Positions 1 to 37,921 of a stretch of DNA of 47,098 bases are shown here, one piece after another; within the stretch, counting starts at the first letter, position 1; each line of letters starts with the position of its first letter. The DNA is from a virus. A model generated the notes under the pieces. The model was not told the DNA's origin. It saw only the letters and a program-made list of their open reading frames with translations, and searched no databases. Both the position numbers and the translations under genes were made by a program. Location: the IMG/VR virus record IMGVR_UViG_3300035703_000147, positions 1-47,098 of that record; one strand, written 5' to 3'.

Positions 1-242
1 GTGTAGCGCACGTATATGTTGTTCGTGCCACTAGGAGGAGCCGAGGTAAACGTGATTGTATTGCCGCTCACTGTGTAGGCATCAGAAGGATTCTGAACCA
101 CGTTCTCAATAACAGCCTCTACCTGATTCACCGAGGCTACAGGACGGCTTAGTGTAAATGCAGTAGTCGATCCATTACCTGAGAAATAATCAGTAGTAGG
201 AGCAAACGACTGGGTAGTTGGGGTATTGCCTATGAATGCCAT
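1..242 (-). CDS. Tail fibre/structural protein, N-terminal part, cut by window edge
   Basis: This gene starts at ATG 242 and is still open at base 1, giving 80 codons. It begins MAFIGNTPTTQSFAPTTDYF, a start shared by many tail-fibre or virion proteins of environmental podophages, followed by a beta-rich segment (FTLSRPVASVNQVEAVIENV). Its start overlaps the stop of the upstream gene as TAATG, so it belongs to the same leftward tail operon. The rest of the protein lies outside the window. If the two window ends were ligated directly, an in-frame TAA would follow after one more codon. Tail function is inferred from family resemblance and position. Confidence 0.75.
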   Translation of the reverse strand, partial: MAFIGNTPTTQSFAPTTDYFSGNGSTTAFTLSRPVASVNQVEAVIENVVQNPSDAYTVSGNTITFTSAPPSGTNNIYVRY

Positions 243-568
243 TAGGTTATATTCAGTACAGAAGTAATAACGTCAATTGAAGTAGCTGCGGAGCTGACAA
301 CTTTCAGCGCATCGCTAGCACCCATTACAACCTTTTGATCACCGCCAACAATGACCAGAGAACTGCCAACTGGCACAGTTGCGCCCTTGACTAGGTAGTA
401 GTCCACAGCTGAGCGAGTAATATACGCATCAACAGTGACTGGGCTAACGGTTGTATTTGCTGCTGACATGCCGATTACGGTGGTCTGGGTACTGGCACCT
501 ACCGTTACGACTGTTGCCGCGGATGTGCCAACATCTTTGTTGACGTATGAAGTAAATGTATTTGCCAT
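242..568 (-). CDS. Small virion/tail-associated protein
   Basis: This 108-residue protein is rich in Thr, Ser, Val and Ala and reads as all-beta (TTVIGMSAANTTVSPVTVDA, then VPVGSSLVIVGGD). Similar short proteins sit beside MAFIGN-type fibre genes in aquatic phages and are taken to be virion components. It has no transmembrane segment and no catalytic motif. It lies 3 bp after the 572-805 gene and overlaps the next start by TAATG, so it is probably co-translated with the tail genes. Its exact role is unknown. Confidence 0.75.
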   Translation of the reverse strand: MANTFTSYVNKDVGTSAATVVTVGASTQTTVIGMSAANTTVSPVTVDAYITRSAVDYYLVKGATVPVGSSLVIVGGDQKVVMGASDALKVVSSAATSIDVITSVLNIT

Positions 569-12718: not shown

Positions 12719-13039
12719 AAAAAAAGGGTCTCGTGTGTGAGGTGGTAATACAGTGGAGCCTCAACCCCCGTCGGTACACTTCGTTGGTCCCGTACCACCA
12801 GGGTAGACATCAGGGTAGGAAGGCATCTGACTGTAGTCTCCCTTGAATATCAGTTGATATACGCCTAGATTCATCAGGTTATGAGACTAAATGCCTAATT
12901 CGAAGACCTAATTCTAGTGTTTCATCTCAGTTTGGGGTATCGGCTCGTCCCTTTTTTCCTGCGGAAAGGGACTGCGCCTGATTGGGTACTTACATCCCCT
13001 TCATTTCATTAACTTTTTTACAACTGACTGGAGTCAACT
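12719..13039 (+). other. Intergenic leader without a gene, with hairpin at 12947-12972
   Basis: I see no credible gene in this 321-base gap at the divergence point. GTCCCTTT at 12947-12954 pairs with AAAGGGAC at 12965-12972 around CCTGCGG. It is followed by a pyrimidine-rich leader (CTTCATTTCATTAACTTTTT) and a GGAG site before ATG 13040. Similar hairpin-plus-leader units precede the genes at 13321 and 16411. A rightward promoter should lie here, but I could not assign one with confidence. Confidence 0.5.
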
Positions 13040-13234: not shown

Positions 13235-13242
13235 TACGTGTC

Positions 13243-13271
13243 CTGCCCCTCTCCTTCTTCGAAGGGGGCAG
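13243..13271 (+). other. Hairpin in the leader of the 13321 gene
   Basis: CTGCCCC at 13243-13249 pairs with GGGGCAG at 13265-13271, with an inner CCTTC/GAAGG stem. It starts 9 bases after the stop of the upstream gene and is followed by CTTCATTCTTTCAACTGTTG, similar to two other leaders in this cassette. It may terminate, stabilise or process the transcript. Confidence 0.55.
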
Positions 13272-13320
13272 TTCACTCTTCATTCTTTCAACTGTTGTCT
13301 ATTTTTTAAGGAGAATTACC

Positions 13321-16271: not shown

Positions 16272-16348
16272 CCAAGTTTATTAGTTAGTGTATCACAAGT
16301 GTTTGCTACTAATACACATCGCTTGTTATTAAACCATCGTCGTCCGTC

Positions 16349-16367
16349 CTTTATCCCTTCGGGAAGG
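16349..16367 (+). other. TTCG-capped hairpin in the amidoligase leader
   Basis: TCCC at 16354-16357 pairs with GGGA at 16361-16364 around TTC, and CCTT/AAGG can extend it. It is followed by CTTTTCTTTCTTTCAACTTT and an AAGGAG site before ATG 16411. This is the third of three similar hairpin-plus-pyrimidine leaders in this region. Confidence 0.45.
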
Positions 16368-16410
16368 TCGTTCGACTTTTCTTTCTTTCAACTTTTATCA
16401 AGGAGCAACT

Positions 16411-17904
16411 ATGAGTCATCGCATATATCTATATGCACGTAGGCGCGTCTATGGACCAGAGTTAGGTAGATCTGAGTTCTTACGTACCTTTGTGAAGAGA
16501 CTTCTTAAGTCTATCGCTCGCTCTACAGGTGGTAGGATTCATACGAATCGCTGGCTACGCCTGATCCAGGAGCTTGCTGCTGCTCATATTGAAGATGGCA
16601 AGGGGAGGGAGTTCATCACAGATGTCCTCAATCTTGTATCTCAGTATGAACGTACACATCCTCTGACTGTGGCTCGCATCAATCTGATGTGCGACATCAT
16701 CGTTCAACGAGTATTTGTTGACAATGATAACCGTGACTACGGACGCATAATGCAGATGCATGACGTTGCCTTTCAAGCTAACAATGATCCATCATGGATT
16801 GAACAAGTTGCTAGCAAGATGGGTATACACAGGGCATCATGTGATCATTACACTGATCGCCGAGTTATGTACACTGGCAGTCAAGAAGATGTCAACGTTA
16901 ACATGTATGTTTGCCATCACTGCAGAGATCGCGATGTATCCTCTGGTTTACGTCAAGAAACTTCACATGGTGAGTATGTTCTTTCATCTTTTGCAGTGGA
17001 ATATACTGACGAGAATAGCCGTCGTAGAATAGGTGATCGCCGTTCTAGTGAACTACGCCTACACAATGGGCGCTGGGTTCATGTCAACTGGTCTCCATAT
17101 TCAAACCTTGTAGATCATTACCACAGTTCACGGGCTAAAGGATTTCATGTAATCGATAGCCCTTGGTTCAGATCTCATCGTCGTGCTTTTGGATGTGAGC
17201 TTGAGGTTCAGGTAACAAGCAGTAACGTGCCAGTCAATACCGCAGCTGGTAAGGTTCATGATGTTCTGAATCCCAGCGGTAACGTAGGTGAGTACTGTTA
17301 CTTCGAACGCGATGGCTCGATAGGTCACGGCTTTGAACTTATTACTCAGCCTGCTGGCCTTGATCTGCATCGTCAAAAGTTTGATCTGTTCTTGAACAAT
17401 GCCGAACTTAAGCGTGGTCTGAGATCACACGAAGGTGGCAGCTGTGGATTCCATGTTCACGTTGGTCGTCAGTATCTAACGCAAGCTCAGATCTACCGTG
17501 TTCAGTCCTTCCTAAATGATGTTCGTAATGAAGGCTTGATCAGGATGATTGCTCGCAGATATGGCGCTGGTTACTGCCGAGTCAAAGCAGAGATGGCTAA
17601 GTTCACATCGCATGGCAAGCATAGCAATGATCGATACGAGATGCTAAATGTATCCAACGATAAAACGGTGGAGTTCAGAATCTTCCGTGGTTCTTTGAGA
17701 TATGAATCGATCGCTGCTGCTCTTGAGTTTTGCAATGCATTGCTGACGTTCTGTCAGCCAGGTGAGGTTGCCTTCAACCAGTTCAATGCTGTTGGCTTCC
17801 GCCAGTTCATTACGAGAGTTGACATGCGCTCAGACACAAAGTTCCTGCGTGCATACCTAAACGTTAATGCGGATACCGACGGAGAAAGGAGTATAGCAGC
17901 ATGA
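16411..17904 (+). CDS. Putative amidoligase (Amidoligase_2, COOH-NH2 ligase with glutamine-synthetase-like core)
   Basis: The 497-residue protein has all the main Amidoligase_2 motifs in order: FGCELEV at 260-266 (metal-binding acids), ERDGSIGHGFELITQP at 299-314, CGFHVHVGR at 345-353 and KTVEFRIFRGS at 418-428. Enzymes of this family use ATP to join a carboxylate to an amine, giving an amide or peptide bond. A C-x2-C pair at 168-171, with Cys144 and nearby His residues, may form an added metal site in the N-terminal half. It is followed by a 38-residue gene and a GATase-II protein, a pairing that Iyer and colleagues predicted for phage peptide or cell-wall modification. The substrate is unknown. 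Confidence 0.85.
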   Translation: MSHRIYLYARRRVYGPELGRSEFLRTFVKRLLKSIARSTGGRIHTNRWLRLIQELAAAHIEDGKGREFITDVLNLVSQYERTHPLTVARINLMCDIIVQRVFVDNDNRDYGRIMQMHDVAFQANNDPSWIEQVASKMGIHRASCDHYTDRRVMYTGSQEDVNVNMYVCHHCRDRDVSSGLRQETSHGEYVLSSFAVEYTDENSRRRIGDRRSSELRLHNGRWVHVNWSPYSNLVDHYHSSRAKGFHVIDSPWFRSHRRAFGCELEVQVTSSNVPVNTAAGKVHDVLNPSGNVGEYCYFERDGSIGHGFELITQPAGLDLHRQKFDLFLNNAELKRGLRSHEGGSCGFHVHVGRQYLTQAQIYRVQSFLNDVRNEGLIRMIARRYGAGYCRVKAEMAKFTSHGKHSNDRYEMLNVSNDKTVEFRIFRGSLRYESIAAALEFCNALLTFCQPGEVAFNQFNAVGFRQFITRVDMRSDTKFLRAYLNVNADTDGERSIAA

Positions 17905-18017
17905 TTCGCATTACTACCAGTAACAAAGTTTGGTCTGACCTGACTGAGCTCGAGGCAAGCACCTTGATCTCATGTCTTTTAGTCAACAATATTAATTTCA
18001 TTGCAGTATATCAATAG
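17901..18017 (+). CDS. 38-residue protein between amidoligase and amidotransferase
   Basis: ATG 17901 overlaps the amidoligase stop as ATGA. The product is MIRITTSNKVWSDLTELEAS followed by TLISCLLVNNINFIAVYQ. It ends two bases before the GGAG of the next gene. Its position and coupling suggest that it is translated. It could be a small partner or a substrate peptide of the ligase pair, which is speculation; small phage proteins with W-S-D-L-T-E-L-E-A are also seen in other contexts. Confidence 0.6.
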   Translation: MIRITTSNKVWSDLTELEASTLISCLLVNNINFIAVYQ

Positions 18018-18027
18018 GAGAAATACT

Positions 18028-19092
18028 ATGTGCATTCTGATTCACCACCCTGCTGGTTCAGAGTTGACCGACGAACACTTCGCGGACTTCTATGACAAGA
18101 ACCCCGATGGCTTTGGCGCCATCATTAACACTGGACGTAAGGTAGATATCATCAAGCGTGTTGGCACATTGCGTGAGATTCAGCAGTTGTATAACAAGTT
18201 TGTCAAGGGTCATGACGCTGTAATTCACATGCGTTGGCGTACTCATGGCGACGTTGATCTTGCTAACTGCCATCCATATGAGGTAGTTCCTGGCTTGTGG
18301 ATGTCACACAATGGCGTTCTATCTACTGGCAATACAGCTGACACAACTAAGTCGGACACATGGCATTACATTAAGGATTATCTACAGCCTTTGCTTGCCC
18401 GTGATCCTGAGCTTATCCATGAGCCAGCCTTTCAGACTCTGATCGAACGGCATATCGGATACAGCAACAAGTTTGGCTTCATGTCATCTGATGGTAGGTC
18501 TGTGATCATCAATCGTGACGCTGGTCTAGAGCATGATGGTATCTGGTATTCCAATACCTATGCTTGGACACCAAGTAAGTTTGGATACAAGTATCCTGGA
18601 TCTACTACGAGTAGCTACCATTATGGATCATCTCCTACATGGGCTGCTTGGAATTCAATGGACAATACCTCTCAGCGTCAGCTAGCATGGGGTCAAGATC
18701 CTGTGGGAAAACCTGTGTCCAAGCGTGGCAAGAAGGCGAAGAAGAAGACAATCGCCAAGAAACAAGCAGATCTATCTGCTCCGCTTGGACAACTCGCTAC
18801 GGAGAGTCTAACTAGAATCATTCGCAAGTTATGGAATGAGATGATGAGCGACGACTACAATGGCGTGTTACGTTGGGTTGAATCTAACCCAATGCAGGCA
18901 ATGCACTTTATCAAGGAGATATTCCCGACCTATACTGATCAGGAAATATCTGACATGGTTAACATGGATCCAGCTCAGGCAACTGAGATTATCTATGACG
19001 CGTGGGATGTTGCTGAGCAAGACTTACTTGAACTGGCTGGCATCCCTCTTTACCAAGACTCGTATGTAAAGGAGGACGTAAATGCTGTTTGA
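18028..19092 (+). CDS. Class II glutamine amidotransferase-like Ntn protein
   Basis: ATG 18028 is chosen over an upstream start because removal of Met would expose Cys2 as the N-terminal nucleophile (MCILIHHPAG). GATase-II motifs follow: DGFGAII, HMRWRTHGDVDLANCHPYE and WMSHNGVL, which match the Arg, Asn and Gly that shape the glutamine pocket. The first ~190 residues form this domain. The remaining ~160 form a basic linker (KRGKKAKKKTIAKKQ) and a helical region that I cannot name. It could supply ammonia or hydrolyse an amide for the upstream amidoligase. Confidence 0.82.
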   Translation: MCILIHHPAGSELTDEHFADFYDKNPDGFGAIINTGRKVDIIKRVGTLREIQQLYNKFVKGHDAVIHMRWRTHGDVDLANCHPYEVVPGLWMSHNGVLSTGNTADTTKSDTWHYIKDYLQPLLARDPELIHEPAFQTLIERHIGYSNKFGFMSSDGRSVIINRDAGLEHDGIWYSNTYAWTPSKFGYKYPGSTTSSYHYGSSPTWAAWNSMDNTSQRQLAWGQDPVGKPVSKRGKKAKKKTIAKKQADLSAPLGQLATESLTRIIRKLWNEMMSDDYNGVLRWVESNPMQAMHFIKEIFPTYTDQEISDMVNMDPAQATEIIYDAWDVAEQDLLELAGIPLYQDSYVKEDVNAV

Positions 19093-21004: not shown

Positions 21005-21332
21005 AGACCTTTCTTTCTTGGCGTTCATCAGCTCTGATTGTTCTCCATACTTCGAGCTGCATCTCATCAGCTTTCATGTCATATCTCAGGCGTTCCTCCG
21101 CCTCCACTGCAGCTTGAAGACCTGTAAGAAGTTGCTGATAGTCCTCAGATGCAAAAGCCTCGCGCTCTTGTGCTGCTGCCGTCTTAAACCCAGCCTTGTC
21201 AGCTTGGCGCATGAGTAACGCGAACTTGCTCTTCTTAAATTCCTCGATATAAGTGCGATGTGCCTTCGCCCTAGCGTACTCAAACGCTTTCTCACGATAG
21301 TCATTTAACAACTCCTCAACGTTTCTTTCCAC
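20994..21332 (-). CDS. Conserved phage helical protein (112 aa)
   Basis: It starts MERNVEELLNDYREKAFEYA and continues ARAKAHRTYIEEFKKSKFAL, then a Gln/Ala/Glu-rich helix (REAFASEDYQQLLTGLQAA) ending with EVWRTIRADERQE. This long-helix pattern matches a widespread phage family of unknown function that lies near recombination genes. It overlaps its neighbours by 11 and 17 bp. It has no membrane or catalytic motif. Confidence 0.75.
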   Translation of the reverse strand: MERNVEELLNDYREKAFEYARAKAHRTYIEEFKKSKFALLMRQADKAGFKTAAAQEREAFASEDYQQLLTGLQAAVEAEERLRYDMKADEMQLEVWRTIRADERQERKVYGT

Positions 21333-21819
21333 TTGTCACCCTCGCTTTCTTTTCTGGTGCTTTCTTTGTTCTCAGTTCAACCACATCTAAACCAACCCCG
21401 CACTCAGAACAATACGTGCATGCAACCTCAGCCGCCTTGACAGCATCAGCACCCATAGCAAGAGCACCAATCGCTAGGTCTCGACCTGAGCCTGAGGCAT
21501 AGAATGAATCTTCGAATATGATTGGGAATGGAACAAACTCATACTTGTGCACCACGCCCTGAGGTGAGATGGCAATCATGTGCGCTGCGAATCCGTCTTC
21601 TTTTTGCAACGCATGAGGAAACTTATTAGGATCAGCGCCAGCTTCAAACCAGCCCATCATCATATTGCACTGAGCTGTAGCTCCAGCAGCTCCGATGAGC
21701 CAGCTTTTGTGTTTACCTGAGGTTATCTTACGGACTTTGGTAACTGTCTGGAGTATGCCTCCCTCAGTTGCCTGCTTGTCCCCGACCAACCTTTGTCCAT
21801 CCCAAACAATCACCGTCAT
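21316..21819 (-). CDS. HslV/20S proteasome-like Ntn hydrolase
   Basis: The 167-residue protein has the N-terminal pattern of proteasome-type peptidases: Met-Thr2, then DKQAT (Asp14) and a Lys at 28 in TVTKVRKI. It also has LIGAAGATAQC and YASGSGRDLAIGALAMGADA, the glycine-rich turn of HslV/beta-subunit folds. After Met removal, Thr2 would be the nucleophile. The C-terminus is a basic tail (KKAPEKKARVTSGKKR). No HslU-like ATPase gene is visible nearby, so it may be a stand-alone peptidase or amidase. The substrate is unknown. Confidence 0.78.
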   Translation of the reverse strand: MTVIVWDGQRLVGDKQATEGGILQTVTKVRKITSGKHKSWLIGAAGATAQCNMMMGWFEAGADPNKFPHALQKEDGFAAHMIAISPQGVVHKYEFVPFPIIFEDSFYASGSGRDLAIGALAMGADAVKAAEVACTYCSECGVGLDVVELRTKKAPEKKARVTSGKKR

Positions 21820-24444: not shown

Positions 24445-24879
24445 CAGTACTTACCCTAACATTTGCTTATTTATTATTCTCCCCTTTCCTTCGGCGGGGA
24501 GATGGAACTCAACCTATAAGTATTAATTAATTATTAATATATAACTCGTTCACCCTAGATCCGAACGTACCTACCCCATCCTTCAGTCAAGTAGGTTCGT
24601 TCAACTAGGCTCGTTCACCCTGAGTCCATTAGTACCCGACAGACGTTCGTGCACAAGGCTCTGTCTTCCCCACCTCTGCTCCTCTACTGCACTATTCCCG
24701 TGGTAGGAGCCACTTCTCTTCTGAAGCCACCGTTGTTATCCCCGTCCTTCAGAATGAATAGTTTAGTATGATTAATATTTATTTGCAAGTGATGTCCGCT
24801 ACGCATCACATGTATCGTTATATTAGTGTTTACCCTAGTGGTTGCATAACAACACCATTATTTTTTTTATTATTGCCTA

Positions 24880-29381: not shown

Positions 29382-29555
29382 GGCTTTGCTATGGGGAAGT
29401 TTCATACTTCCTTGGATTACATCCACTGCGATAGCTTCACTAAGAATGGTGTGATGTGGACTGGATACGTCTCAATGAAGGACGGTGATATACGGTGCTT
29501 TTGGAAGGAAGAAAGATACCCCTGGCGTTTAATGCAAGGGGTACCTGTTAGTTAG
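29343..29555 (+). CDS. Small membrane-anchored protein (70 aa)
   Basis: ATG 29343 gives MRYVLVAAYFAVMGFAMGKF followed by a beta-like, Cys-containing domain (HTSLDYIHCDSFTKNGVMW and GDIRCFWKEERYPW). The N-terminal hydrophobic stretch is a single membrane helix or uncleaved signal. No clear ribosome site is present and the repeat above overlaps the start. It ends 4 bases into the convergent 29552 gene. Function unknown. Confidence 0.6.
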   Translation: MRYVLVAAYFAVMGFAMGKFHTSLDYIHCDSFTKNGVMWTGYVSMKDGDIRCFWKEERYPWRLMQGVPVS

Positions 29556-32500
29556 TCTTCTGCAGATTCCCTAACCAACCCACCAGCACGATTGAGTAAT
29601 CCTTGATCAGTTGAATTACCAATCACAGCATCACGGAATCCTGCACGGATAGCAGCATTTACGGCACGGTTCTGGAACATCTTCTCTTGTTCTTTAATCT
29701 TGTTTCGAGCAGTTACTTTGTACTCTTCACTGAGATTAGGATTGGAGTTGATTGATTGCAGCTGTTGACGCAACGCTTTGATCTGCTGATCTACCCCTGA
29801 GATTACAGCCTTAGCAGCGCCCAGGTTTGGATGTTGCCTGAGAATCTCAGTCTTTTCTGCACGGGTAGTATTGGGATCCATGAACTCTTTGTACTTAGTT
29901 TCAATAGACTCAGCAGCACGACGCATAGCACCAGCATCGTAGCCCTCAGGAACGCGAGCAGATAGGCGATCGATAAGAGGAATAGGTGCACGCTTGGTGT
30001 CCTCTCCACGCATCTTTTGGATAGCTAAGCCTGCGCCCTTATATACCTCAGTAAATATACCTGGCAAGTACGATTGAATAAAGTAATCCACTGCCCCAGG
30101 ATTGATGTCAATCAACCCTTTCTTATATTGATTACCACCAGTAGCATTATTCAAGCCACGCATCAGAGATCTTGACATTGGGTTAACCGTATCAAAATGC
30201 ATATATGAGTTGGCTTCTTTTACATCAGAGAATGGATTCTGCTCTTTGAATATAGGAGCACCGAATCTATTTTCATTAGATGCTATGTCCACAATCGGAG
30301 TCAGGATTGATGGGGTAATTGTTTTCAAGAAAGCACCAGCAGCAGTTTGCGACTCAGCACCAGATCCGATCGGGGCAAAGGAGTCAAAGGCTGCAGTTAA
30401 CACACGGCTAGCTGCCTCTTCAACCTTAAGCTTCCCACCAAATACATCAGCCATGTAATGTCCAAGAGTATGGAATACGTTCCAACCATATGCAATTGGA
30501 ATCGCACCACCAGGAACATCAGGTGCAAGTATCAAGCTGGTTGAGCGTTTGTAGTTGGGGATCATGTCAAGCTTGTCTACGCCTGGCTTATCTTCATCCT
30601 CACCACCTACAGCACGAGCAATCATGTTGCCCATAATACCCATGACAATCCACACGCCAGCCACTTTAGAGAACTGGGCGCTTGGCATAAAGCGAGCAAA
30701 GCCCTTGTCACCAGCACTGTAGTTTTGGAACATACGATACGTGCCTTGTACTGCAGGATTAGCGAATACGTATAGCGATCTAAAGTTCTGAGATGCACCC
30801 TTCATGTTGAAGTTAACTGTGATCTCTTTTGCGTAGGTCGCTGCACGCTCTTCAGTCCAGCCGTTCTGACGCAACACCTTGTACATAGCAAAGCGAGGCG
30901 CGGCTTCCATTGGCATGCTGATTAATTCCATGAACTTACCCACTGACTCAAGCTTATCCTTGGTTAGTTCTAGCATTCCGTTGGGGCCACTCATATGGCG
31001 GTTCATAGATTCGATGGTTTCTTCTACGTTCTGGCGATCAAGGAAGAACGTCTCCGCACCATTGCGACGGAACTCTTCGTAGAGTTGCATCTCTTCTGGG
31101 GTAAGAGGCTTACGTTGCTTGAGACCGCCAAGGTAGCTACCCCACCATCCTCCAGTTGTATCTGATTGATCGGCAACAAGGTAGCGGAAAGCCACCTTGA
31201 GGGATGGATACCACTCCTTAGTCATCTTAGCTGCAAGTACTGGTCCCACCTCAGGATCGGCAGAGGCGTTAGCAAATGCCGTCTGAGCATCTCGGAATCC
31301 GTTAGGCAATACCCAAGCTGGATTCCAGGAGGTGATCAACTGACTGAAGAATCTGCCCCATGCGCCAACCAGCTGCACCAGATCTGACCTGGACTGTTGA
31401 CTTGCACCTGAGATGGATTGAACAAACTGTTTTCCCTGATCTGTAAAACGCATCAGAATTGGTTTGCCATCTACACGTGCCACCAATACATTTGGATCTC
31501 TGATCAGGTTTGGATCTTCAACCATTGAAACGTATCCGTCTGGGGCAATGCGACCTGAGATTACAACCTCAGCATTGACCTTGCGGATTGCAGCTAGAGC
31601 ATCAGCTGGCTCAACCACACGCTGTTGTTCGGCTAAATTAATACGGTTGATTAACTCAGACTGCGCTTCATCTGCGGTCATAGATCCGTCAGCAATACTC
31701 TTCTTCAGACTCTCTAGGAACTTACGACCAGAGCCCTCATTCGGTGCGTCACCGATGTACTTGAGTATCTTCTTGTCAGCGATTAAGCGATCTAGGTTAA
31801 GACGTTTCTTCTCGGCAATCGGATTGATCTGCACGAAATTAGGATCGGGATTCTGCTCTAGCATCTGCAGGATAGAACGATTGACTCTTGCTTTCTGCCC
31901 ACGGATTAGCGTAGACAGGTATGCGTTCATGGTGTTTTGTAGTATGTCGACAGGCTCAGTTCCACGACCCAAAGCTGTTTGTACTTCACGACCTTTGAAG
32001 TTGAACCCGTTGGGTCCAAGATCAGACTTATCAAACTTGTCGAGTCCGAGATCCTCGTTACCAGACAAGTTACGATAGTTACTGTAGACATTCAACGCCT
32101 CTGCTGTATTTGCGTCGACAAGACCTGTTTGCACCATGTAGTTCACATGATCTTTACTCATCTTATCCATTAATCTTCCAAGAGATTCAAGCTCGGGACG
32201 GTATGCTTCCCATTGACCGTCGTTGTTATTTTGCAACAACTCACGAGCAGTCTTGTTATCCATACCAGAGCCACTGAAGTTAGTAGGATTAATTTTGTTG
32301 ATCTGCTTGTTACGCTCTTCAGCATGTTGAGCCAATAGGAAACGGTCAACACTGCGTATGTCACCGCCTTTATCTCCAATTGTTTTCAATAGCTTTTGAA
32401 TTGGCTCTTGATAACGCTTACGCATGTCATCAACAAAGAACTTCAGGCGACCTTCGTATAGCTTGAGATCTTGAATGACGGTGTTATCAGCGCCGCTCTT

Positions 32501-35500
32501 AGATAGAAACTCAGATACTTCAAATACTGGAAGATATTGGTTTTGAATATTGATCTGAAGTTTACGGGCAAACTTTTTCCAGCCTTCAACATCATCAAAT
32601 GCAGGGATCTGTTTGATAGATGCTGGGTCAACCTCTTGACGGGTACCGCGATCAGTAGAGCGAACTGGCTTGCCAACCTTTTTAAGGATAGCGTACGCTT
32701 GATCGTACTCTTCAACGGTTGTTGAACTAAATGTTCCATCTTTCTTATCAAGAGTAAAGACTGTCCACTCACGGGTAACTGGGTTAAGACGTGCATATCC
32801 TGTAGTCTGACCGTCACGAGTAGCAAAGATTTCTACAGGATTCTTGTTGCGTGCAAACAACACCTCAGAAGGTGCGCCGTTGAGTGGGCTTACACCTTGT
32901 GTACGTACAGCAGTACGTGCGCTAGACAATATGAAAGCAAGCTGGCGATCACCAGTGCTATCAAGCCAATCAGCAACAGAATCAACCCCTGCTTTGCGTA
33001 ACCAATCAACGAGGCGACCAATGAGTTCTCTGAAGAGGCTGGAATCTCCCTTGGCTGCGATGTCTGCAATAGCTTCCTCGATTGACTCGAGTCGTGACAT
33101 AGGCTGCTGGGATGCCGCCGCATCTTGGAACTGTCGGTCTGCTTCATTTCGCACCTTGTCGTTTAGTCGATACTGTGTTTCTAAGAAGGAGTTGAGGCGA
33201 TCTCCTAGGAAGTAACGCATACCCCAGTGACCATACAGCTCATGGAATAAAACAAACTCAGCATCAGCCACGTCATCTAGATATTGAGAGAACAAATAAA
33301 CCTGACCAGTCTCAGTGTCAATGGCACCCTTGAATGCGCCATTATCAAAACGACCTAGAACACGGGCGCGAACCTCAGGATCAGAGATCTGAGCTGGGTT
33401 CATGAGAACGGTGTAGCTGGGCTTCACATCCCAGTCAGCAGTAATCTCAGACAGGTGAGCTGCAACAGTAGAAGCAGCTGGGCCATGCGAGTTTTTGCCA
33501 CGCTTGTACAGAACGTCACCACTTAAGATGACGTTGGTCTCAGGTTGAGTTGATACGTCTGCGGCTGGCTCAATTACAAAACTGTCATCGCTGTAACGTG
33601 CCGCTGCATCAGCGATCTTTTTATACAAGAGACTAATGCGTGCATCTTCTCCTGTCATAAAGCCTTCACCTGTTCTTGCAGCTCGCTCAATCTCAGCCTG
33701 AACTTCAGCATTTGAGATCTCAGGCATCTCTTGACCATCGATTGCAGCAACATTGTCATTGGCATCTTCGTTATCTAATGCTGTTGACTCAGTGATATCA
33801 TTTTGGTAAATCTGAGCTAGCTGATCTTGCAAAGCCGAGATTAACTCATTCTTATTATTAGCTAGGCTTGCGGCTTCTGCCATCAACTCAGCTTGGTGAA
33901 TGATTGCTGATGCCTGATTTAAGTCAGATATAAGGATGCGGTTCTGGAATACGGCATATGCCTTGGGGTCTAGCCCTTGCATGTAGTCAAGCATTGACAT
34001 GTAAACACGCAGTTCATTACGACGACCGTTGTCAAGAATTACTTTGTCAGTTTTATTCTTGTATTCAATAACGGCTCTCTGCTCTTCTTTTGTTAGGCCG
34101 TCCATAATCTGTTGCTTCAGATCTTTGCGAGCGTCCAACGCATAAGTAACATCATCAAGCCATAGGCGGTGTAAATATTTCAACTCACCATAAACCAAAC
34201 CTTCTAGTGCGGCACGGTCTCCCTCTGGGATATTGTTAGGATCTGCCAACTCTTTGAGTGAATAGGTATTGAATAGGGCATGTGGGAATGCTTGCTGTAC
34301 GTCATCATACAAAGCATTCACATATTCAGCTCGAGTGCCACCCTTAATAGATAGCTGACGATCAAACTGTTCTTGGCGACGGCGCTTTAATGCATCACGC
34401 TTCTGGTTAATGTAAGCGATGACACGCTTTTCTCCGTCTGTAATTGATTTTTCAAACTCAGCAAATTTCTCTGGCTGGTCTGAGTAGATGTTTTTGATCT
34501 GTTCATATGAGCGTACCCAAGCATCACGAGATGCGTAGTTTCCAGCCTGACCTTTGGGGTTTCCAAATACAAAATCAGCAAGACGGGTAGTAGCCGCAGG
34601 AAACTGGCTGACCTCACGATCAACTGCTGTCAGTTCTTTGCCGCTCATAGCCAAAGCTTTACGGAAGTCGCTGAATTGAAACTCACGATCCTTCTTGGGC
34701 AAACGCATCTCATTCCAGAGTGCGCTCATGTCAGATCCACCAGACGCTTCGATCGCTGCAATAGCGTTCAATGCGGCTTGTATACGGTCGCTTTGTTCGA
34801 TGTCAGGGAAGTTAAGCTCAGCTTGTGTGGTATCTTCATTGACTGTGCCAACTGAATTGTTGACTTCCTCTACGGTATCAGCCTGTTCGAATACTTGTAA
34901 GCCAGCTAGTTTTTGACCAACCACACGATCAATAACATCTGATGAGAAACCATCGGCTTCCATCTTTTGTTGCAAACCAACAAGCTCATCAGAGATCTTG
35001 GCTGCATGAATTTTTAATAAACCTGCACGAGCATTAACGTCAGCTTTCTGTGCAGATTCGATGGCCTTGGCAATAGCAGCAACAGGATTGCTACGCTTAG
35101 ATCCAGACTCCATCGCGCCCACTTGGGCAAACTGATCGAAGATGTATTCCACATCAGACTGCTTCTTGTTGAACTTGAAGAACGGGCGCTGACGGTTATA
35201 AATGTCTTTGAGCTTTTGACGCAGCTCAACCAAAGTCTGATCCACAGTACTTGGTGTAAACATCGTAGTCATAATACGTTGAGCCTGCGCTTCGTAACTA
35301 TTTAGTTTCTGCTTCTGTTCAGTGCTCATGAACTGTAGAGATTGCTGAACAGGTGTGGCAGCACGACGCTCATCACGGAATGTGAGTGTTTCTTTTCCAC
35401 GCTTTAAAGCCTGAGGGATGGATGCAATACGTGCAACCACGTTGGCAGAAGATCCTTCAATAGCCTCACCTGCTTTAGCATTGCGGATCATGTATAGACC

Positions 35501-37921
35501 GCTACGCTTGGTGTCAAATACTTTACCGACTACTAAGCCTTGCGCATCAAGTAGACTACCAATTAGGTTTGAGCTATCGTTTTCAAGCTTGGTATTCACA
35601 AGGGCTATACCCTTGGTATCCGTAAATGGCTCAGCCTCAAACTCACGACGCTGCGCTTCTTGGTTTTCTTTGGCTTGCTTAGCCATACGTTCTTGCTCTT
35701 GAACATCTGGAGCAACCGTCTTTGGCTGTTCTCTGAATGTGCCACGCTGAACACGATTTGGGTCAGCATTAATGACCTCGATTGGTCGCTTATCTTTTAT
35801 CTCCTGAACAGGTGCTTGAGCTGGAGTTGGAACGGCTTCAGCCTGCGGAACATTGACCGAAACTCTATCTGTGTCCTGCGCCACTGTTGTTTCGACTGGC
35901 GCTTCTCCTGGCGGAGTGACATCCTGAGTGACCTGTACCTGTGTGGCAGCCTGCGTAGATTGTGGTTCTGCATCCTGTGTAGCCTGTTGAGTTGTAATAT
36001 CTGTAGGTTCTGCAGGAGCGGCCTCAGGAGCTACGATTGGGGTTACTTGAGGTGTAGCCCTACCCTGCACCACAGCCTCGCCTTGTGGCTTGATCTGAGC
36101 GGTCTGAGGAGGAACTGCTGCTGCTTGAGTTTTACTGACTGCTGTAGATACGGTTGTATCTACGGGTAAACCCTGACGAACCTGTGCCTCAGCTTGGCTT
36201 AGACGAGCTAATGGGCTTGGCTCAGATGGTATTGGGGTAGCCATCTCAGTTGGGGTACGATCCAACCCAATTTGGGTATCAGCTTTGGGGGCTGGTTTTT
36301 CACGGGTAAATACGCCTTCGGCTTCCATGATCCCTTGATCAGCCAGATCTTTGGCGATGCGAATAGACTCACGGGTGGGACGTAAGTCCCTTGGAGCAGA
36401 AGACACAGCGCCTCCTGCAAATGGAGTGTCTATAGGTCTGGTGCGCTGATAGAACTCTCCTAACCTTTCTTGGAACTGACCAGCAAAGGTTGGGTTATCT
36501 GAAATAATGCTGTTGCCTTGAGAAACTAGGTTAGCGTTCTGAGATGCATTGGCTAGATCAAGATTCATACGAGTCTTATCTGCATAGTTTTGCAGCTGAG
36601 CACGGGTATTCTCGTCACCCTGAGAATAAAGAGATGCTAAGAAAGCTGGACCGTCTTGAGATTTCTGCAAGCCAAAGAACTCTGGGTCTGTTAGACCTTG
36701 CTGAGCAACCTGAGATGGTACGGTTGGAGCTGGTTCTATTGGGCTGACATTGTTAAAGCTGGCTGGTGCTGCCTGTACTGTCACATTACCCTGAGGTTGT
36801 ACTGCTCCAGGACGACGTAAGCCACCTGAGGTAGCAACCTCGATAGGGGCAAAAGCAGCCTCACCAAATATCTCGGCAAGAAGCTCGCCTTTACCAACCT
36901 CCTCGCCTACTGCTTGAGCCGCTTGATATGCACCAACACCACCTCCAGCTCCTTGAACTCCAGCTTGGAATGCGGCATTGCCTACTATGGCAGTTCTAGG
37001 TGCGGTAGCAGCAACTCTTGATAGTGGGTTAATTCCCATGAATAAGCCAGCAACAGCATTGGCTGGAACTTCAGCAAGTGTTTTAGTTGCAGCATAATCA
37101 GACGCAGCTTGAGTATCGCCTTGAAATTTATCAAGACCTTCTACGTAGTTGGTTCCTAAAGATCCAAGAATGACAGCGCTTGAGTTGGTTGCAGCACCAA
37201 AAGCGGCAGTACCAACTGCAGCAGATTGCGTGGCAGAAAGACCACCACGAGCAGCAAGACCGCGAGCAGTCAGACCAACCACACCGCCAGGTAATACGGC
37301 AGCAGCCATTGCAGGCAATTGCTCACCAAGGAAGTTAACAGCAACACCTGGGTTGGAAGCAATATACTTCAGCATTGCTTTGGCACCTTCGTAATAATCT
37401 GGTGCGTCGTTTCCTTGCTGAATCAACTGCTGAATACGTGGGTCAGAAGCGAGAGCCTTGTATTCTTCTACGCTTTTTTGCAGGATTGGAGCGGTATCAG
37501 AACCGCTTCCTGTGACGGCTGTTTCTAGTTTGTTAGCGAGGTAGTCCCATGTAAGCATGAGACCCTTAGCCCCCTTCTGCACGGAGTCAATGAACCCCAC
37601 TTCCTTTGCAGGCGTTGCAGCAGGAGATATCTGTGGCGCTGTAGAATCATATGCGTTGAGCACTTGCTGAATTGGATTTGCTTCAGCAGGTGCAGCAGTT
37701 GTTGGCTGATTTAAAACACCACTGTCATACGCTTTTAGAATATCATCTATTAAAGATGGATTCGTAGCTGCTGGAGAGCTTGGACGAATTCCAAGCCGAG
37801 GTCCTTCCACTTTGCCAAGACTGTCAAGACTTTGGCTGGTTGGATCAATTTGCACTCCAGTCTGGCCACGACTGCGTACTTCCTGCCCCGCTTGAGTCGA
37901 GCTCTTGAAAAGTTCTGCCAT
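29552..37921 (-). CDS. Giant polyvalent virion protein (2789 aa) with zincin-like motif and LPD38-like region
   Basis: At 8.4 kb this takes about 18 percent of the window. The N-terminal region has hydrophobic stretches (FLGEQLPAMAAAVLPGGVVG) and a long Pro/Gln/Val-rich linker near residues 585-700. Near 1560 there is HELYGH, the HExxGH signature of zincin metallopeptidases. Near 2200-2430, SWNPAWVLPNGFRDAQTAFA and VFANPAVQGTYRMFQNYSA match the LPD38 domain of large polyvalent proteins. Such proteins are packed in phage heads and injected. Gene order (just after the other internal proteins) fits an ejection protein. N4-type virion RNA polymerase motifs were not seen. Confidence 0.85.
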   Translation of the reverse strand: MAELFKSSTQAGQEVRSRGQTGVQIDPTSQSLDSLGKVEGPRLGIRPSSPAATNPSLIDDILKAYDSGVLNQPTTAAPAEANPIQQVLNAYDSTAPQISPAATPAKEVGFIDSVQKGAKGLMLTWDYLANKLETAVTGSGSDTAPILQKSVEEYKALASDPRIQQLIQQGNDAPDYYEGAKAMLKYIASNPGVAVNFLGEQLPAMAAAVLPGGVVGLTARGLAARGGLSATQSAAVGTAAFGAATNSSAVILGSLGTNYVEGLDKFQGDTQAASDYAATKTLAEVPANAVAGLFMGINPLSRVAATAPRTAIVGNAAFQAGVQGAGGGVGAYQAAQAVGEEVGKGELLAEIFGEAAFAPIEVATSGGLRRPGAVQPQGNVTVQAAPASFNNVSPIEPAPTVPSQVAQQGLTDPEFFGLQKSQDGPAFLASLYSQGDENTRAQLQNYADKTRMNLDLANASQNANLVSQGNSIISDNPTFAGQFQERLGEFYQRTRPIDTPFAGGAVSSAPRDLRPTRESIRIAKDLADQGIMEAEGVFTREKPAPKADTQIGLDRTPTEMATPIPSEPSPLARLSQAEAQVRQGLPVDTTVSTAVSKTQAAAVPPQTAQIKPQGEAVVQGRATPQVTPIVAPEAAPAEPTDITTQQATQDAEPQSTQAATQVQVTQDVTPPGEAPVETTVAQDTDRVSVNVPQAEAVPTPAQAPVQEIKDKRPIEVINADPNRVQRGTFREQPKTVAPDVQEQERMAKQAKENQEAQRREFEAEPFTDTKGIALVNTKLENDSSNLIGSLLDAQGLVVGKVFDTKRSGLYMIRNAKAGEAIEGSSANVVARIASIPQALKRGKETLTFRDERRAATPVQQSLQFMSTEQKQKLNSYEAQAQRIMTTMFTPSTVDQTLVELRQKLKDIYNRQRPFFKFNKKQSDVEYIFDQFAQVGAMESGSKRSNPVAAIAKAIESAQKADVNARAGLLKIHAAKISDELVGLQQKMEADGFSSDVIDRVVGQKLAGLQVFEQADTVEEVNNSVGTVNEDTTQAELNFPDIEQSDRIQAALNAIAAIEASGGSDMSALWNEMRLPKKDREFQFSDFRKALAMSGKELTAVDREVSQFPAATTRLADFVFGNPKGQAGNYASRDAWVRSYEQIKNIYSDQPEKFAEFEKSITDGEKRVIAYINQKRDALKRRRQEQFDRQLSIKGGTRAEYVNALYDDVQQAFPHALFNTYSLKELADPNNIPEGDRAALEGLVYGELKYLHRLWLDDVTYALDARKDLKQQIMDGLTKEEQRAVIEYKNKTDKVILDNGRRNELRVYMSMLDYMQGLDPKAYAVFQNRILISDLNQASAIIHQAELMAEAASLANNKNELISALQDQLAQIYQNDITESTALDNEDANDNVAAIDGQEMPEISNAEVQAEIERAARTGEGFMTGEDARISLLYKKIADAAARYSDDSFVIEPAADVSTQPETNVILSGDVLYKRGKNSHGPAASTVAAHLSEITADWDVKPSYTVLMNPAQISDPEVRARVLGRFDNGAFKGAIDTETGQVYLFSQYLDDVADAEFVLFHELYGHWGMRYFLGDRLNSFLETQYRLNDKVRNEADRQFQDAAASQQPMSRLESIEEAIADIAAKGDSSLFRELIGRLVDWLRKAGVDSVADWLDSTGDRQLAFILSSARTAVRTQGVSPLNGAPSEVLFARNKNPVEIFATRDGQTTGYARLNPVTREWTVFTLDKKDGTFSSTTVEEYDQAYAILKKVGKPVRSTDRGTRQEVDPASIKQIPAFDDVEGWKKFARKLQINIQNQYLPVFEVSEFLSKSGADNTVIQDLKLYEGRLKFFVDDMRKRYQEPIQKLLKTIGDKGGDIRSVDRFLLAQHAEERNKQINKINPTNFSGSGMDNKTARELLQNNNDGQWEAYRPELESLGRLMDKMSKDHVNYMVQTGLVDANTAEALNVYSNYRNLSGNEDLGLDKFDKSDLGPNGFNFKGREVQTALGRGTEPVDILQNTMNAYLSTLIRGQKARVNRSILQMLEQNPDPNFVQINPIAEKKRLNLDRLIADKKILKYIGDAPNEGSGRKFLESLKKSIADGSMTADEAQSELINRINLAEQQRVVEPADALAAIRKVNAEVVISGRIAPDGYVSMVEDPNLIRDPNVLVARVDGKPILMRFTDQGKQFVQSISGASQQSRSDLVQLVGAWGRFFSQLITSWNPAWVLPNGFRDAQTAFANASADPEVGPVLAAKMTKEWYPSLKVAFRYLVADQSDTTGGWWGSYLGGLKQRKPLTPEEMQLYEEFRRNGAETFFLDRQNVEETIESMNRHMSGPNGMLELTKDKLESVGKFMELISMPMEAAPRFAMYKVLRQNGWTEERAATYAKEITVNFNMKGASQNFRSLYVFANPAVQGTYRMFQNYSAGDKGFARFMPSAQFSKVAGVWIVMGIMGNMIARAVGGEDEDKPGVDKLDMIPNYKRSTSLILAPDVPGGAIPIAYGWNVFHTLGHYMADVFGGKLKVEEAASRVLTAAFDSFAPIGSGAESQTAAGAFLKTITPSILTPIVDIASNENRFGAPIFKEQNPFSDVKEANSYMHFDTVNPMSRSLMRGLNNATGGNQYKKGLIDINPGAVDYFIQSYLPGIFTEVYKGAGLAIQKMRGEDTKRAPIPLIDRLSARVPEGYDAGAMRRAAESIETKYKEFMDPNTTRAEKTEILRQHPNLGAAKAVISGVDQQIKALRQQLQSINSNPNLSEEYKVTARNKIKEQEKMFQNRAVNAAIRAGFRDAVIGNSTDQGLLNRAGGLVRESAED

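Follow-up and report, generated by a model that had tools for sequence, protein, structure and literature searches.

Which reaction might be carried out by an amidoligase and a class II glutamine amidotransferase that are encoded side by side in a phage genome, what would its target be and does a 38-codon ORF lodged between the two genes take part in it? These questions are raised by a locus in a podophage-like virus record of the IMG/VR database (IMGVR_UViG_3300035703_000147), the 47,098 nucleotides of which, here termed the window, also encode portal/adaptor, terminase, primase-helicase, ERF and internal virion proteins. A betaproteobacterial host is plausible, given a match to the Rfam Betaproteobacteria-1 RNA (RF02932) at 24634-24756 on the reverse strand (70 bits). 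The reverse strand also encodes a 2789-residue protein (29552-37921), the C-terminal part of which matches phrog_14770 and phrog_616, both annotated as being of unknown function, and a small Ntn-type protein (21316-21819) with a weak proteasome match. The HslV-family phrog_1040 matches one window protein, most likely this same small product. The features of the locus itself are collected in Table 1.

Table 1. Features of the amidoligase-amidotransferase locus (nucleotide positions refer to the window, residue numbers to the respective protein).
Feature	Position	Strand	Basis or remark
Leader hairpin followed by CTTTTCTTTCTTTCAAC tract	16338..16392	+	directly upstream of the ligase ribosome-binding site
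Amidoligase (Amidoligase_2, carboxylate-amine ligase superfamily), 497 aa	16411..17904	+	Pfam, PHROG, fold, conserved residues
Ligase, N-terminal helical region	residues 1-136		
Ligase, zinc-ribbon-like module	C144, H146, C168, C171		
Ligase, YHSS motif	residues 237-240		
Ligase, predicted ATP-dependent ligase domain	residues ~257-483		followed by a short variable tail ending -AA
38-codon ORF, clade-specific accessory small protein MIRITTSNKVWSDLTELEASTLISCLLVNNINFIAVYQ	17901..18017	+	codon-position pattern, homologues, SD
Class II glutamine amidotransferase, 354 aa, nucleophile Cys2	18028..19092	+	weak Pfam, fold hits, conserved residues
Amidotransferase, Ntn glutaminase, GlmS-like domain	residues ~1-180		followed by a divergent C-terminal helical extension

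The two enzymes and their linkage

A preliminary description of the locus had ascribed all Amidoligase_2 motifs to the 497-residue protein, and each of them is in place: FGCELEV (260-266), DGSIG (301-305), FELITQP (308-314), CGFHVHVGR (345-353) and VEFRIF (420-425). The ORF has an ATG start preceded by an AAGGAG Shine-Dalgarno (SD) sequence, and in the Pfam search its product passes the curated cut-off of PF12224 (31.1 bits against 22; E 2.8e-7), while matching phrog_16683 (1.7e-25) and the amidoligase family phrog_2443 (2.8e-10) among the PHROGs. The sequence itself gave no meaningful match to solved structures, and the superfamily was placed by fold search. The top PDB neighbours of the structural model, with modest E-values (1e-3 to 1e-2), are the GCS2-type ligase 1tt4, glutamine synthetases, PafA and Dop; as judged from the model, these make up one superfamily, that of the carboxylate-amine ligases (GS/GCS). 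A search of predicted viral structures ranks other phage amidoligases highest. The ExE strand, HxH and EFR motifs conserved in this fold are present, and ten residues (E263, E265, D301, E309, H348, H350, R383, N413, E421 and R423) are invariant in 91 out of 91 sequences. Just N-terminal of the catalytic domain, the YHSS motif is nearly invariant.

The C-terminus of the ligase (17887-17901 in the window, compared with 85 relatives) reads mostly -AA, -VA, -TA or -EI, -EV, and the tail preceding it varies freely. Of 49 non-redundant ligases, 44 terminate in Ala, Val or Ile (27 of them in Ala), and the entropy of the last two positions is 1.84 and 2.34 bits, against 3.2-3.9 bits at positions -3 to -20, with the caveat that one control family (cluster 2), represented by fewer sequences, is also low at its last residue. 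By the same measure the C-terminus of the amidotransferase is unconstrained (3.57 bits). The constrained end of the ligase might signal degradation or serve as a docking tail.

The next large gene had been taken to encode a GATase-II enzyme with an N-terminal Cys, an assignment that stands once the start of the gene is corrected. The mechanical ORF list begins the gene at a TTG codon (18001), which is an artefact; the true, conserved start lies at the ATG at 18028, which has its own SD (AGGAG) and yields a protein beginning MCILIHHP, and the amidotransferase begins with Met-Cys in each of the 113 pair loci described below. The protein misses the curated thresholds of Pfam (GATase_4, 18 bits against 23; GATase_6, 14.3 against 27) and is a divergent member of its class, recognized by fold and residues. 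The best fold match of its model is the GlmS glutaminase domain (E 1.3e-5), with PurF and EgtC also among the matches, and a PDB profile search leads to the GlmS glutaminase as well, with R69 to G96 aligned with GlmS. Residues C2, R69, T72, G74, N95, G96, D110 (assigned via the SDT motif) and T111 are invariant in all 91 sequences compared, the sole listed exception being a C. difficile neighbour gene that is itself no amidotransferase. Five of them (R69, T72, N95, G96 and D110) correspond to R73, T76, N98, G99 and D123 of GlmS. The occurrence of EgtC among the fold matches suggests a different reading, in which the second protein would be an Ntn amidohydrolase of gamma-glutamyl compounds rather than a true amidotransferase, and the pair would build and trim a peptide. 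However, the GlmS glutaminase domains match best and the five glutamine-pocket positions never vary, and we regard this reading as decidedly unlikely.

Relatives were gathered in independent searches baited with either the ligase or the amidotransferase. Pair loci, defined by a ligase scoring above 200 bits, number 113, with 85 distinct ligase sequences from phages and a few bacterial genomes. In every one of the 113 the amidotransferase is the next gene on the same strand, and in pairs devoid of the small ORF the two genes overlap by 1 nt at one extreme and are 96 nt apart at the other, with 2-50 nt the usual distance. The neighbour family next in frequency occurs at only 21 of 42 loci, so the pairing exceeds general synteny. 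In contrast, the correlation between the distance matrices of ligase and amidotransferase (r 0.90) cannot be taken as proof of contact, because control genes from these phages show correlations of about the same strength. Neither Cys2 nor the ligase metal residues, whose loss in homologues was looked for, are missing from any of the roughly 91 sequences of each enzyme. The proposed identity of both enzymes and their near-obligate pairing are thus borne out by Pfam and fold matches, by the unbroken series of loci and by intact active sites. The pair is widespread, and its near-perfect pairing makes the chemistry directly approachable as a two-protein system.

At most loci from Clostridia (Ruminococcus and others; L114-L136), the same position is occupied by another class II amidotransferase subfamily, recognized by Pfam GATase_6 (3.2e-12), the members of which begin MCAIFGFVNY. 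The amidoligases of these loci are often preceded by a Rad52/22-like protein, and the clostridial pairs probably reside on mobile elements. For a few distant amidoligases of Microcoleus and C. difficile phages, no amidotransferase neighbour was seen in the annotated surroundings.

The small gene and the upstream region

The ORF of 38 codons had been noted for its position between the two enzymes and for its ATGA overlap, and its start does overlap the ligase stop, with an AAGGAG at suitable spacing inside the ligase tail. Nine base changes separate the ORF of the window from that of the related locus L003; seven of them fall at third codon positions, and the two proteins share 36 of 38 residues. 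In L031 a 36-residue homologue occupies the same place, with 16 of 25 aligned residues identical in frame, as compared to 5-7 in the other frames, and L032 encodes a diverged homologue of 41 residues. All homologues lie exactly between the enzymes, with overlapping starts, and the SD in the ligase tail is present in the lineages that carry the small ORF and absent from 12 other members examined of the same ligase clade. A chance ORF is ruled out by the third-position pattern, the frame-specific identity in L031 and the co-occurring SD; it is a genuine gene under purifying selection. In one further pair with a longer gap (L046, 7452-7531), the gap contains an SD and what may be a 24-residue hydrophobic peptide with a GTG start, unrelated to the 38-residue protein.

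The distribution of the small gene is narrow. It was found in four lineages only (the window and L002, L003, L031 and L032) and is absent from 80 of 85 distinct pairs; no homologue occurs elsewhere in the searched flanks of pair loci, and a search of annotated phages for relatives returned a single chance-level match (E 8). Mycobacterial Pup ends in Gln, as does the 38-residue protein of the window, and this likeness, together with purifying selection and the exact placement between both enzymes, is what could be said for a role as substrate of the ligase or as a ubiquitin- or Pup-like modifier. The homologues, however, end in Q, Q, N and L, with no conserved Glu/Gln and no GG motif. Given that variable C-terminus and the absence from most pairs, the protein is not a core partner, nor a general subunit, substrate or Pup-like tag, and we deem the modifier reading highly improbable. 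The partner or substrate suggested in the preliminary description was therefore not upheld, since the trio is confined to these four lineages. The small protein is a lineage-specific accessory outside the core chemistry, with a role perhaps as regulator or adaptor, and as such it provides a ready entry point to how the pair is regulated in one lineage.

Upstream of the ligase, L003 and L031 preserve the leader hairpin although both arms of its stem have acquired changes (shuffle z -3.6, -5.2 and -4.0). A further hairpin with a pyrimidine tract (CTTTCTTTCAAC-like) was observed at 13240-13295 and a weaker one at 12945-13010, both just upstream of the ribosome-binding sites of early genes. Such elements are perhaps attenuators, processing sites or phage promoters. 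The suggestion that the small upstream genes belong to the same unit as the pair is weak, for none of them stays with the pair outside a part of the phage group to which the window belongs, and the conserved hairpin and pyrimidine tract separate them from the ligase.

Probable chemistry, target and benefit

Taken together, the pair is likely to be a glutamine-dependent ATP amidoligase made of two subunits and encoded in an early-type gene region. The class II amidotransferase would hydrolyze glutamine at Cys2 to release ammonia; the amidoligase, with its glutamine-synthetase/GCS fold and Mg-ATP, would activate a carboxylate as an acyl phosphate; and the ammonia, or less likely another amine, would attack the acyl phosphate to form an amide.

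Regarding the carboxylate, the single likeliest class of target is, tentatively, a host cell-wall or surface peptide, for instance the D-Glu or meso-DAP of peptidoglycan stem peptides, with proteins or small molecules following closely in likelihood. Against a wall target stands the lack, in the window, of the GGACT of the multi-gene peptidoglycan cassette compared below. The N-terminal part of the ligase carries zinc-ribbon-like residues (CxxC or CxH around position 144 and CxxC at 168/171) in 88 of 91 sequences, and the ligase profile weakly matches the zinc-finger chain HRS (E 0.02). Such a module would be as well suited to binding protein or nucleic acid as to binding a wall precursor. It may recruit a protein target, in which case the ligase, in the manner of PafA and Dop, two of its fold neighbours, would couple a protein carboxylate to ammonia, an amino acid or a small peptide. 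This protein- or peptide-modifying reading is possible, yet open to considerable doubt. In fold, the ligase resembles the superfamily at large, PafA and Dop scoring no better than glutamine synthetase and GCS2-type ligases; no conserved substrate protein is linked to the pair; and the 38-residue protein, missing from most pairs, has a C-terminus that is not conserved.

Class II amidotransferases mostly feed small-molecule synthases, and GlmS and PurF are the closest solved folds of the one studied here, which is congruent with a pair that makes or modifies a small metabolite (a nucleotide, an amino acid or a precursor of DNA bases, in amide form) that serves counter-defence or metabolism. Yet the 64 window proteins scanned include no base-modification or dedicated biosynthetic genes among the matches listed, limited in each case to the 25 top-ranking families, and this alternative appears rather unlikely to us.

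Returning to the wall or surface as target, its amidation would protect the infected cell, or the host of the element, from other phages. A protective role is suggested by the copies of the pair in Polynucleobacter, along with earlier proposals of superinfection exclusion. Of 186 genomes there, three contain the pair, each time as cargo on an element that encodes a tyrosine integrase and a MobA-type relaxase; on two of these elements it adjoins a SIR2-HerA anti-phage system. As the latter two (L111 and L112) are nearly the same element, the SIR2-HerA neighbourhood represents one or two independent events. In L111 and L112 the pair and then SIR2-HerA lie within 3.8-12.4 kb, and in the third element (L110, 3.5-12.2 kb) the pair is followed by a 416-residue protein without known family. 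A wider search of the Burkholderiales for bacterial copies returned only the known Polynucleobacter ones, and PADLOC gave no match for the pair. These cargo copies hint at a benefit to the host cell, beyond phage metabolism alone. It is even conceivable, although as a whole unlikely, that phages and integrative elements share a mobile, glutamine-fed amidoligase that works in superinfection exclusion or defence, is targeted by its own zinc-ribbon-like module and, in one phage lineage, is controlled by the 38-residue microprotein.

Comparison with known systems

The system had been presented as perhaps mostly undescribed, which is too strong: amidoligase-amidotransferase pairs are already known in many phages, among them OM43 phages, Marvin and phages of the LUZ24/RIO-1 type. 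Amidoligase and glutamine amidotransferase genes have been listed as auxiliary metabolic genes in the OM43 phages MEP401 and MEP402 and their relatives (PMC10580990). These share with the window the two families, their order and adjacency (with a 10-nt overlap in MEP401) and the early part of the genome, but the proteins are only ~30-34% identical, no small ORF separates them and the phages belong to the Zobellviridae. In mycobacteriophage Marvin, a ligase (gp105) is likewise followed, 79 nt downstream, by an amidotransferase (gp106), with catalytic residues kept; identity is 27-31%, and both products are annotated as glutamine amidotransferase domain proteins, even though gp105 is a ligase. 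The closest annotated phage is the podophage MW202733 (ctgrD200), whose ligase and amidotransferase, 5 nt apart, are 41% and 38% identical over the matched parts, but which lacks the 38-residue ORF and carries integrase and phage RNA polymerase genes nearby.

In phiEco32, LUZ24 and RIO-1, amidoligase and class II amidotransferase genes form part of a peptidoglycan-modification cassette that also comprises gamma-glutamyl cyclotransferase (GGACT), COOH-NH2 ligase and ATP-grasp genes (PMC5498523, PMC3890496). The ligases are related to that of the window at the fold level (tf and CW02 ligases), but the cassette is larger, the window having its two-gene core only. GGACT was detected in none of 21 virus records, the window included, which may be incomplete, while the positive control OR838459, a phage that carries the cassette, matched; a search for the COOH-NH2 ligase PF14395 returned no match, and none for the controls either. 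With GGACT lacking from the window, the idea of wall modification is not directly transferable from LUZ24/RIO-1-like phages.

A glutaminase subunit that feeds an ATP-dependent amidating ligase is also, in outline, the arrangement of MurT-GatD, the peptidoglycan-amidating complex (PMC3267633). The likeness is one of arrangement. MurT belongs to the Mur-type ligases and GatD to the class I amidotransferases, and their folds are unrelated to those of the amidoligase pair.

Wall modification and superinfection exclusion have both been proposed for genes of this kind (PMC10580990, PMC5498523), and our literature search found no paper testing what the pair modifies. To this body of work the present analysis adds, as far as checked, the accessory small gene, the zinc-ribbon-like module, the constrained C-terminus of the ligase and the cargo copies on mobile elements.
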